Source of the DNA: Pseudolabrys sp.
GTDB lineage: Bacteria; Pseudomonadota; Alphaproteobacteria; Rhizobiales; Xanthobacteraceae
Assembly: GCA_026125895.1 (NCBI GenBank)
Contig: JAHCKG010000003.1
Span: 209,101-273,100, forward strand
DNA: 64,000 nucleotides
Reading direction: 5' to 3'
Positions 21,874 through 24,843 of this stretch are shown piece after piece. The notes beneath the pieces are model-generated. The model was not told the origin of the DNA and ran no database searches. It saw only the letters and a program-made list of their open reading frames with translations. Position numbers and translations under genes: made by a program. The stretch's first letter is position 1. Each line of letters starts with the position of its first letter.

Positions 21874-22677
21874 CTAACAACATGAGCCCTTCTCCTCCTC
21901 ATGCTCATGCGACCCGTGCTCGGCAACGCGCCGGGCGCGAATCATCTTGACGTGATCGTTCATCAGCGCGCGCGCCGCAGAGGCGTCGCGCAGCTCGATG
22001 AGATCGACGAGCTTTGAGTGAATTTCGAGGATGTGCTGCGCGAGCTTCGCCGTCGCCGTGACGTTGCGGCGCGGCCAGGAGATGTGTTCGAGCGACATCA
22101 ACTGCACGACGATGACGCGGTTGTGCGAGGCTTCCGCCACGGCAAGATGAAAGTCGCGCGACAGGCGCGTGAAGAGGTCGAGGTCGTCCATCGCCGCTTC
22201 GGCGTCGGCGAGCAACTGGCGCAACTTGGCGATGTCGGCGGAAGTGGCGTGCTCGGCGGCGAGTTCGGCGCCGAGCGTTTCGATGGCGCGCTGGACATCC
22301 ATGATTTCGGCGGCGGAGACGCCGGTGAGATCGAGCTGCACGGCGAGCGCCTCGGCGAACAGCCGCGGATTGCCGTGGGCGATGCGGGCGCCGCCGCCTT
22401 TGCCCATGCGGATTTCGACAATGCCGAGCGCCTCCAGCGTGCGCAGCGCGTCGCGGGCGACGATGCGGCTGGTGCCGAAGCGGGCGGCGAGATCCTTCTC
22501 GGTGCCGAGAAAGTCGCCGGGCTTGAGCGTCTTGGCGAACAGTTCGTCGCGCACCTGGGCGACGATCTGCGCGGAGAGGGAAGAGGAGCGGCCGGCGAAC
22601 ATGATGCGCGCGGTGAGCTGGCCGCTCATCGCGACCGGCACTCCCAGAGCCGTTTTAGCCTTGCTGCTGCGCGGCAT
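21874..22677 (-). CDS. GntR-family transcriptional regulator (FadR/FCD type)
   Basis: A 267-residue DNA-binding regulator. Residues about 35-105 are the winged helix-turn-helix (KDLAARFGTSRIVARDALRTL). Residues about 115-245 form the all-helical FCD ligand domain, with metal/ligand residues in RDFHLAVAEASHN and ILEIHSKLVDLI. FCD regulators usually respond to small carboxylates. The tail is odd: EHGSHEHEEEKGSCC carries three His and a Cys pair. Two palindromes in its upstream region are candidate autoregulatory operators. Likely targets are the adjacent NMT1-like gene and perhaps the liv operon. Confidence 0.85.
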   Translation of the reverse strand: MPRSSKAKTALGVPVAMSGQLTARIMFAGRSSSLSAQIVAQVRDELFAKTLKPGDFLGTEKDLAARFGTSRIVARDALRTLEALGIVEIRMGKGGGARIAHGNPRLFAEALAVQLDLTGVSAAEIMDVQRAIETLGAELAAEHATSADIAKLRQLLADAEAAMDDLDLFTRLSRDFHLAVAEASHNRVIVVQLMSLEHISWPRRNVTATAKLAQHILEIHSKLVDLIELRDASAARALMNDHVKMIRARRVAEHGSHEHEEEKGSCC

Positions 22678-22762: not shown

Positions 22763-22798
22763 GATAGTAAAGATACTATCTTATGTCGGCCCGACATA
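22763..22798. promoter_or_regulatory. Two adjacent palindromes upstream of the GntR gene
   Basis: GATAGTA-AAGA-TACTATC (22763-22780) is a perfect 7-4-7 palindrome. Directly beside it, TATGTCGG-C-CCGACATA (22782-22798) is a perfect 8-1-8 palindrome. They lie 86-121 bases upstream of the GntR start in AT-richer DNA between two divergent genes. Operator function is inferred from symmetry and position. Confidence 0.6.
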
Positions 22799-22890: not shown

Positions 22891-23298
22891 ATGAAAACTG
22901 TAGCTTTAGAAACAGATACCTTTGCTGCGGTCTGGGCCGATCGGCGCCCGGGAGAAGAAACCGAGGACGCAATTATTCGCCGTAAGTTCGGGCTGAAGTC
23001 TGACCATTCCGAGAAGGTGCCGCGAACAGAAGTTGTCGGTTGGACTGATTTGCGAACCGGGACCTCCGTTCCTGAAGGCTTTGAAATCTTCCGAACTTAT
23101 AAAGGCACGGAGTATCGGGCCAGAGCAGGCAACAGCGGATGGCTTCTGAAGAACACCGGAATTTTTTATCCGTCGCTGAACCAACTGAGTCGGGCTGTCA
23201 GTGGCAATGTCGAGAACGCTTGGAATAATTGGTATTTCAAAAACTCGGCCGGAGTGCGCGAACTCATCACCAAACTTCGAGATCGTCCGACCGTCTAA
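22891..23298 (+). CDS. Small protein with DUF2924/RAMA-like C-terminal region, function unknown
   Basis: A 135-residue protein with codon use and base composition lower in GC than its neighbours, suggesting recent transfer. Residues about 57-120 show a pattern of a Thr/Tyr-rich strand (FRTYKGTEYRARAG), then FYPSLNQLSRAVSG, then a Trp-rich segment (NAWNNWYFKN). This layout (strand, Y-x-S-L, helix, G, W) resembles the DUF2924/DUF4357/RAMA class of small domains, often attached to DNA-modifying enzymes or found near recombinases. Assignment is by eye and uncertain. Shine-Dalgarno GGAGAG lies about 6 bases before ATG 22891. No restriction or recombinase gene is adjacent. Confidence 0.6.
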   Translation: MKTVALETDTFAAVWADRRPGEETEDAIIRRKFGLKSDHSEKVPRTEVVGWTDLRTGTSVPEGFEIFRTYKGTEYRARAGNSGWLLKNTGIFYPSLNQLSRAVSGNVENAWNNWYFKNSAGVRELITKLRDRPTV

Positions 23299-23387
23299 GG
23301 AACTCAACGTGCTTCCTTCCCCTTTCCGCTTGCGGAAGACGGCGGCGAGCCCGAAGGAGAGCACAAGCAAATAATATTCCTAGGATA

Positions 23388-23417
23388 TTGACTTTTTGCT
23401 CGCTCTGTTTCTATATT
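23388..23417 (+). promoter_or_regulatory. Sigma-70-type promoter before a structured non-coding element
   Basis: TTGACT (23388-23393) and TATATT (23412-23417) with an 18-base spacer; an AT-rich stretch (AATAATATTCC) lies upstream. Predicted start near 23424. No protein gene begins within reach; a stable helix begins at 23427. Confidence 0.65.
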
Positions 23418-23423
23418 CCCAGT

Positions 23424-23885
23424 CATCCCGCCCCAACTTACGAGGGGCGTTTGATCAGCGTCATCAGATGCTGGGGCGGGGAGCGGTGGTGGCCTGAGGC
23501 GTCGGAGATGCGGCGCTACGTACTCAGGTCACGGTCCGAGCCGCTCGCTCCCGGCGCGCCAGCCGCGCGTCACTGGGGCAAAGGCGCTTGCGCCAAAGGG
23601 AAACAAGCATCGGCCCGCCGAAGAGAAGCCCTGTACAAGGGTTTTTCGAAAGCCGCCCGATGGGGACGTCCTGGCGGTGCCTGTGCCGGAGCCCCGCAGC
23701 GGTGGATAGCAAGGTACGTCCACCGGGGGTCGAGCGGAGCAAACCTATAAACACCGCGCGCGGGACGCCGGGGATCCGGCAATTCCGTGGTGACTAACTC
23801 GTGTGAATCTCACTCACACGCACACGAGGCTGCGGGGTCGTTTGGACCCCGGCGTTCCGCGCGCCCTCGTTATCGGAGGCGTAGA
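23424..23885 (+). ncRNA. Candidate promoter-driven structured RNA / dispersed element
   Basis: No convincing protein is encoded here, but several strong helices are. CCCGCCCCA (23427-23435) pairs with TGGGGCGGG (23472-23480). GGCGC (23583) pairs with GCGCC (23590). GGTGGA (23701-23706) pairs with TCCACC (23719-23724). A terminal 18-bp helix joins 23756-23773 to 23847-23864 with one G-U pair, and inside it CTCGTGTG (23798-23805) pairs with CACACGAG (23821-23828). Several frames are open by chance because the segment is GC-rich. I recall similar intergenic segments in Bradyrhizobium and Rhodopseudomonas genomes, giving spurious small proteins; this is memory, not a search. The flanks (23299-23387, 23886-24060) hold only a TTCCGC-TT-GCGGAA hairpin and half of a class C-like repeat. 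Confidence 0.5.
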
Positions 23886-24060
23886 TGGAAATGCGAACTT
23901 GGAATGCGGCCTGCCCGGGGCCGATCAAACAATGCGGGCGATGACGCACGTCTATTCTTCTTATCGTCCCCACAAGGGGGAGGGTGAAGAAGCGGTCCCT
24001 TCGCCAGGCGCATACCCAGCCTTGCCGAACCGCGCATTGCCGCGGCGGGCGGCATCGATC

Positions 24061-24843
24061 ATGGTCGCCGCCCTTACAGTGAAAGGCCGCACTTTGGATG
24101 TGACGCCGGTTTCGTTTCTGCTGCTCATCGCCGCCATTTTCATCGTCGCCGGCCTGGTGAAGGGCGTCATCGGCATGGGACTGCCGACGGTGGCGATCGG
24201 CCTGCTCGGCCTGATGATGTCGCCGGCGCGTGCCGCCGCGATCCTCATCGTGCCGTCGCTGATCAGCAACATCTGGCAGGCCGCGGTCGGCGGCCATTTC
24301 CGCGAGCTCGTCGCGCGGCTGTGGCCGTTGTTCATCGGCATCGCCATCGGCACGGCGCTCGGCGCGCTCTATCTGCCGCACAGCAACAGCGGCGGCGCGA
24401 CCATCGGCCTCGGGGTTGCGCTCGCGATCTATGCGCTGCTCGGCCTGCTGCGCATCGAATTCAAGGTGCCGTCGCGGCATGAGCGCTCGATCGGCTTCGT
24501 CTGCGGCATCGCGACCGGCGCCATCACCGTGGCGACCGGCGTCTTCGCCATCCCGCTGGTGCCCTATGTCACCGGGCTGCACATGGACCGTCACAAGCTG
24601 GTGCAGTCGCTCGGCCTCGCCTTCATCAGTTCGACGGTGACGTTGGCGCTGGCCCTGCAATATGCCGGCGAAATTCACGGCGCGTTGCTGGTGCCGTCGG
24701 CGGTCGCGCTTGTCGCCGTGCTCGCCGGCATGGGTCTCGGGCAATGGTTGCGCGGCCGCATCAAGCCGGAAACTTTCCGGCTGTGTTTCTTCATCGGCCT
24801 CCTGGCGCTCGGCGCGCATCTGGCGCTGCGCTCGCTGCTTTGA
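24061..24843 (+). CDS. TSUP-family (TauE/SafE) membrane exporter/permease
   Basis: A 260-residue inner-membrane protein with about eight helices in two similar halves. The first contains GLVKGVIGMGLPTVAIGLLG, the TauE/SafE signature, and the second GAITVATGVFAIPLVPYV. Members move sulfite, sulfoacetate, sulfolactate or other organic acids. ATG 24061 is chosen because membrane-protein character begins there; the open frame further upstream overlaps the structured element and half-repeat and is not protein-like. The Shine-Dalgarno sequence is weak. It stands alone before the hydrolase gene, which has its own promoter. Confidence 0.82.
   Translation: MVAALTVKGRTLDVTPVSFLLLIAAIFIVAGLVKGVIGMGLPTVAIGLLGLMMSPARAAAILIVPSLISNIWQAAVGGHFRELVARLWPLFIGIAIGTALGALYLPHSNSGGATIGLGVALAIYALLGLLRIEFKVPSRHERSIGFVCGIATGAITVATGVFAIPLVPYVTGLHMDRHKLVQSLGLAFISSTVTLALALQYAGEIHGALLVPSAVALVAVLAGMGLGQWLRGRIKPETFRLCFFIGLLALGAHLALRSLL

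Follow-up and report, generated by a model that had tools for sequence, protein, structure and literature searches.

A multicopy family of large structured RNAs in alphaproteobacteria, with a candidate LexA-like repressor

What is specified by a strongly folded, promoter-bearing stretch of intergenic DNA that recurs among related alphaproteobacteria? The question is raised by a locus in Pseudolabrys sp. (Xanthobacteraceae, Rhizobiales; GenBank assembly GCA_026125895.1, contig JAHCKG010000003.1, positions 209,101 to 273,100), within a stretch of 64,000 nucleotides that is referred to here as the window. A first-pass annotation, made from the sequence alone, had marked positions 23388 to 23885 as a promoter-driven structured non-coding element. 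Our analysis suggests that this copy is the gene for a large, self-standing structured non-coding RNA, one of many interchangeable copies per genome, and that an autorepressor of the S24 fold controls such genes; we judge the two parts, taken jointly, moderately probable. The RNA gene, including an upstream dyad, spans 23375-23952 on the plus strand and has the following features.

23375 to 23385, plus strand: operator-like dyad TATTCCTAGGA, directly upstream of the -35 element; sole match in the window at up to one mismatch
23388 to 23417, plus strand: promoter TTGACT-N18-TATATT, with the -35 element at 23388-23393 and the -10 element at 23412-23417; most paralogues have similar promoters
23424 to 23952, plus strand: class I structured RNA gene of about 530 nt, from an alignment of 32 copies (A1), covariation and folding
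23427 to 23480, plus strand: 5' domain, with helix 23427-23435/23472-23480 and inner hairpin 23458-23462/23467-23471 (helices 1 and 3)
23483 to 23757, plus strand: long-range helix 23483-23488/23752-23757 (helix 4), closing a central, highly variable multibranch domain
23756 to 23864, plus strand: 3' domain, an 18-bp terminal helix around hairpin 23798-23805/23821-23828 (helices 13 and 14; helices 2 and 3 in the distant copies)
23908 to 23939, plus strand: 3' H-type pseudoknot, stem 1 23908-23911/23919-23922 and stem 2 23913-23917/23935-23939 (helices 16 and 17)

Both ends of the RNA (23424 and 23952) were placed by conservation and promoter spacing. The element that had been marked at first pass stood, but its borders did not: conservation continues to about 23952 and takes in the pseudoknot on the 3' side, and the dyad lies beyond the 5' border. 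The promoter is present as described, 9 bases ahead of 23427, and this sigma70-type site is the only promoter-like one in 23300-24150 (mean of 0.2 in 50 shuffles). The dyad has a chance expectation of 0.09 per window at up to one mismatch, against one observed. Folding of 23422-23952 gave a z score of -6.62 on the plus strand, with none of 100 shuffles as low, and of -1.41 on the minus strand, with 7 of 100 as low. All three helices named at first pass were recovered: the 9-bp helix of the 5' domain, the 18-bp helix with its one G-U pair (23756-23773/23847-23864) and the 8-bp helix inside it, which is seen in the alignment as helix 14.

Is this pairing conserved by selection? Covariation was found both within the genus and in 35 distant copies lying outside the covariance model described below, upholding the earlier claim of conserved pairing. 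In the genus alignment A1, 97.1% of cells pair, versus 35.0-50.3% for slid pairings, and there are 147 double-change cells versus at most 42 when slid and a mean of 40.0 when shuffled; 29 of 90 pairs changed on both sides. These values are to be read with the make-up of the alignment, which holds 32 of 41 aligned sequences (L042, L045, L047, L056, L060, L066, L070, L071 and L075, truncated or poorly aligned, were left out; a further alignment, A2, holds 28 of the 32), and with the fact that the structure was chosen on the same alignment, RNAalifold pairs 351-352/359-360, 630-633/778-781, 738-739/744-745 and 753/759 having been removed and the pseudoknot added. Helices 1 and 3 of the 5' domain are paired in 99.6 and 100% of cells with no pair changed on both sides, and such near-invariant helices say little on covariation. 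The long-range helix is 99% paired, and two of its six pairs vary, on one side only. Both-side changes occur in one of four and two of five pairs of the pseudoknot stems, whose variants across both RNA classes (class II is described below) are CCCG/CGGG, GCCC/GGGC, CCCC/GGGG and, in one copy, UCCC/GGGA. The test on distant copies is more independent, though limited to the 3' domain and made on an alignment fitted to the model. These copies, from other genera and families and none of them in the model (set A7, from a search at 1e-8, which replaced set A6 with its 3 antisense among 38 matches), pair in 95.9% of cells and show 136 double-change cells in 20 of 30 pairs, versus at most 13 when slid. 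Within the 3' domain, 6 of 14 pairs of helix 2 and all nine of helix 3 have changes on both sides.

The element had also been said to lack a plausible protein and an assigned function, and both statements hold. A conserved reading frame was not found across copies, which differ in the length of the 5' and 3' domains, with every remainder modulo 3 represented, and differ widely in their open runs; there is no sign of a protein. Rfam 15 (4227 families, including the GOLLD, ROOL, OLE, raiA, group II intron, guide-RNA and rRNA models) gave no match at gathering score in the whole window or in 20 loci. Below threshold, the best model on the 18-bp helix region (23756-23864) was MIR1437, a plant-type microRNA, at 31.6 bits against a cut-off of 168 (E 0.0021), with five weaker ones; class II loci gave MIR4374, MIR918 and BjrC68, likewise under the cut-off. 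The RNA may account for some of the short hypothetical proteins annotated in these genomes, as judged from one translated locus and the open reading frame (ORF) list of the window.

How widespread is the RNA? Its recurrence in related genomes, which the first-pass annotation had stated, was seen by three routes. BLAST gave nine matches in the window's own genome, several of which are remnants or fragments of a single copy, and hits in 16 of 40 genomes (own included), all within the genus. Of 391 genomes sampled in the bacterial family, 248, from 27 of 47 genera, matched R1, a covariance model of the 3' domain that fits the window at 23734-23870. This count is a lower bound, as are those of the order-wide and class-wide samples below, because samples of more than 40 genomes were scored with stricter filters. 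There were 1-34 R1 matches per genome in 30 genomes picked as positive. Sampling across the order gave matches in 18 of 297 genomes, eight of them outside the family, where some matches are weak (E up to 8e-5), and a class-wide sample of 289 genomes had no match beyond the window's own genome. Finally, a 23-base signature of the terminal helix (80 loci listed of at least 118) occurs in records named Pseudolabrys, Afipia, Rhodopseudomonas, Tardiphaga, Bradyrhizobiaceae, Xanthobacteraceae, 'Rhizobium sp. Q54' and unassigned Rhizobiales; no record named Bradyrhizobium is among the matches listed. In the samples searched, the RNA family is confined to one alphaproteobacterial order.

A second class of RNA was reached through the dyad. 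Class II loci (402-516 bases as cut) resemble class I in the 5' domain, share its 3' pseudoknot and have its dyad or a variant of it, but the middle and the terminal helix are different. Their core covaries, with double changes in 6 of 23 pairs (alignment A3, 17 of 21 class II stretches). R2, a model of this core, matches 84 of 391 family genomes in 25 of 47 genera and has no match in the window. One further RNA-like locus with dyad and 3' pseudoknot, L151 in genome G077, falls outside the R1 (E 0.36) and R2 matches listed and is perhaps a third class. Antiterminated rRNA leaders contain boxA-type strings, and boxA-like strings (GCTCTTTGAAAATT, CTGTTTGAAAATTGAATC or near variants) stand directly 3' of the pseudoknot in L109, L137, L148, L152, L378, L379 and L382.

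The copies behave as interchangeable. Mean identity is 0.594 between copies at the same locus (n=8), 0.745 between copies in the same genome (n=61) and 0.58 for other pairs (n=427). Since identity within a genome exceeds that at the same locus, which is close to that of unrelated pairs, the alignments indicate that copies evolve in concert and are homogenised within a genome, as rRNA genes are. The GntR/FCD and TauE/SafE genes on either side of the window copy were the anchors by which its locus was traced in other species; the neighbouring ORFs are as follows.

21874 to 22677, minus strand: GntR/FCD regulator gene (Pfam GntR and FCD), flank
22891 to 23298, plus strand: 135-aa ORF from the ORF list, adjoining the RNA and not part of it; no Pfam or NCBIfam match
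24110 to 24843, plus strand: TauE/SafE gene (part; Pfam TauE), flank; listed as an ORF at 23803-24843, with a nominal start

Between the same GntR and TauE genes there is a class I copy in G000, G004 and G109, a class II copy (by R2) in G008, G002 and G257, a truncated remnant in G073, and no RNA in G001, G015 and, by eye, G130; class I and class II therefore stand in for each other at one locus. A palindrome, GATAGTAAAGATACTATC, lies upstream of the GntR/FCD gene (window 22763-22780) and recurs in somewhat altered form at the corresponding position in L366-L370; it is probably that regulator's operator.

What, then, controls the copies? Four of 10 genomes contain the pattern ATTCCTAN{0,4}TAGGA, with 20 sites in all, against 8 for its reversed control. 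Eighteen belong to RNA genes, remnants or an interrupted copy, one to a gene for a protein with a peptidase S24 domain, and one is unexplained (L146 and L151 assigned by eye). G077 alone has 13 of these sites, against one for the control: four class I genes, six class II genes, L151 (unclassified, by eye), one class I copy interrupted by an insertion element of IS1595 type, and the S24 gene. The other seven comprise three class II genes and a remnant (by eye) in G000, two class I genes in G018 and one site in G010 (L139), the sole exact dyad without an RNA gene, which is near tRNA-like sequence. The form TATTCCTAGGA was found at 25 sites in 3 of 5 genomes (3 for the control), all 25 preceding class I or class II genes or remnants by eye, and is absent from G015, a genome with neither RNA class. 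With the two scans combined, 43 of 45 exact dyads front such RNAs or their remnants and one an S24 gene. By eye, the motif overlaps a -10-like element at the S24 promoter, lies in the spacer in class II, is upstream of the -35 element in Pseudolabrys class I and falls at the -35 element in G618; because its position differs among promoter types, it is not simply a core promoter element. Another motif, CTTATCC or TTTATCC followed by C-rich sequence, precedes RNA copies of other genera (L116, L122, L125, L128, L134, L316 and L317) and is perhaps a second mode of control.

The S24 protein appears to be LexA/CI-like, with a peptidase S24 domain (PF00717, E 2.4e-24), a Ser/Lys dyad and an Ala-Gly site. 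Ser136, Lys173 and Gly98 are invariant and Ala97 is nearly so in an alignment of 23 sequences (A5, drawn from 42 loci; 24 gave an ORF and L326 was left out). The top Foldseek hits of its structure model are LexA and lambda CI, a sequence search of PDB with the protein gave no hit, and the score against LexA proper (TIGR00498) is 28.8 bits, below the curated cut-off of 110.95. The N-terminus has no Pfam helix-turn-helix match; it forms five helices in the model, with weak Foldseek hits to the C.BclI control protein (E about 0.02). Among 42 orthologues (excluding the weak partial matches L184-L186), 29 carry ATTCCTA in the 150 bp that precede the matched start, versus none of the 42 for each of six permuted 7-mers. 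These upstream motifs occur in the window's family, f14 and f35 and not in f3, f5, f13 or f20. In the upstream scan, a 5' anchor was missing for L113, L121, L123 and L131, and wrong anchors included those of L118, L120, L122, L124, L125 and L136.

Together, these observations suggest a mechanism. The S24 repressor would bind ATTCCTA/TAGGA sites at its own promoter and at those of the RNA genes. LexA and CI relatives are inactivated after DNA damage by RecA-stimulated self-cleavage, and inactivation of the S24 protein would derepress many RNA copies together, giving a burst of folded RNA. We can only guess that the RNA might then serve as a scaffold or in some other structural role, by itself or together with proteins, in a mode comparable to GOLLD. 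Because copies are homogenised and classes swap loci, total RNA dose would matter more than any single locus. That an S24 autorepressor controls many interchangeable large-RNA genes is, with the moderate confidence given above, the account that we favor, as a hypothesis for part of the range. A bolder version can be imagined, and we offer it tentatively, as distinctly less probable: a LexA-like switch that acts, as far as its targets can be detected, on hardly anything but non-coding RNAs, in which cleavage would fire both classes together, the RNA or ribonucleoprotein assembly would protect the cell or counter phages during DNA damage, and gene conversion would keep the copies uniform while the classes interchange at one locus.

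Could the RNA be something other than a self-standing host gene? The copies might be relics of a selfish non-autonomous mobile element, with a folded RNA that aids the element's own propagation and has no function for the host. Up to 34 copies per genome, presence or absence at one locus, copies at contig ends and truncated or internally deleted copies (L345, L349, L352 and L353) are what such a repeat would leave, but same-locus copies are common to several species, the pairing is under selection over many genera, and direct and inverted end repeats are not above control in 31 copies (means 6.7 versus 6.4, and 6.6 versus 6.6), with no insertion footprint. The phage and plasmid collections, which may omit records very close to the window's genome, likewise gave no match, and we regard this explanation as rather unlikely. 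No clean empty site was seen among 10 genomes inspected of 43 searched for the window flanks, and the flank loci of the RNA-free G001 and G015 are too diverged to show a junction. In L143 (G077), an IS1595-type transposase gene lies between the promoter and the 3' domain of a class I copy. A divergent group II intron, an IscB/IsrB or TnpB guide RNA, or a bridge RNA parted from its protein would also bring a large fold, a pseudoknot and multiple dispersed copies; the Rfam result in the window and the 20 loci and the lack of a neighboring gene common to copies within a genome make this very unlikely. The window copy does lie upstream of TauE on the same strand, as a cis-regulatory leader of TauE/SafE would, yet other species have class I, class II, a remnant or nothing at that place, and among 40 loci no flanking ORF of at least 90 aa is common to two loci of one genome (loci of different species often have flanking ORFs in common). 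We consider a leader very improbable.

Control by the S24 protein is the less secure part of the account. The dyad may belong to another regulator, with the S24 gene as one more target: a shared motif does not name its binder, and G326 (genus g41) keeps 34 class I matches with no S24 match. Autoregulation is usual for S24 repressors, and the exact dyads of G077 resolve into 11 RNA genes (L151 by eye), one interrupted copy and the S24 gene itself, which argues against a different binder; we regard that alternative, too, as rather unlikely. Several further observations weigh against S24 control. Thirteen of the 42 orthologues do not have ATTCCTA, including five of eight in g41, and the S24 gene is present in G015, which has neither RNA class, indicating that the protein is not dedicated to the RNA. 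S24 matches are missing from the less complete G000 and G002, and none was found in the window's own genome (82% complete); in G326 the repressor was possibly lost while the RNA expanded. An exact dyad is missing from many RNA genes: G180, with 8 class I and 9 class II matches among those listed, does not contain TATTCCTAGGA; G147, G232, G104 and G178 have the RNA and no ATTCCTAN{0,4}TAGGA, which only 5 of the 10 class I matches in G077 have, and some RNA promoters of g39, g40, g55 and family f3 bear ACTTATCC-type sequence instead. The half-sites are variably spaced and differ in where they lie relative to the promoter, which is unusual for a dimeric repressor. The structure model is of moderate quality (mean predicted local distance difference test score 71.6, predicted template modelling score 0.46), and RNA copies and S24 orthologues are related, so that the counts are not independent.

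How does this RNA compare with what has been described? To our knowledge, large structured bacterial RNAs fall into a small number of known classes, most of them lacking a function. OLE and raiA are large structured bacterial RNAs, like the RNA described here, which differs from both in being multicopy, without an Rfam match and, in the samples searched, limited to one alphaproteobacterial order. rRNA genes likewise occupy dispersed loci at conserved positions and are homogenised within a genome, but the RNA has no Rfam rRNA match at gathering score and its central region is highly variable. The candidate switch resembles the LexA SOS regulon in its S24-fold repressor, its conserved Ala-Gly, Ser and Lys residues and its motif at the repressor's own promoter. 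The alphaproteobacterial LexA site is GTTC-N7-GTTC; the operator here would be different, and the dyads found front non-coding RNAs and not repair genes. PMC12286853 presents OLE as a large structured bacterial RNA and GOLLD and ROOL as large pseudoknotted RNAs, ROOL with no known protein partner and GOLLD rising in expression during phage lysis. Our RNA is similarly large and pseudoknotted; unlike GOLLD and ROOL it is chromosomal, is often present in many copies per genome, has a candidate LexA-like operator, and has neither an Rfam match nor a phage-collection hit. It shares its multicopy, intergenic nature and its bacterial group with the Br-REP1 and Br-REP2 repeats and BjsR small RNAs of Bradyrhizobium (PMC5082802); unlike it, the Br-REP consensus printed there consists of short palindromes, the RNA having been compared by eye with these consensus strings only. 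Br-REP-like ATTCCGG palindromes stand beside RNA copies L039, L108, L112 and L369.

No paper in the literature searched was recognised as treating this RNA. As far as sequence comparison can tell, we consider the finding real: an apparently unnamed superfamily of multicopy structured RNAs that has no Rfam 15 match at gathering score and is accompanied by a candidate LexA-like switch. Within a group of soil bacteria the RNA is frequent, and a single genome often has many copies; its candidate regulator makes both the inducing condition and the phenotype of a deletion directly testable.
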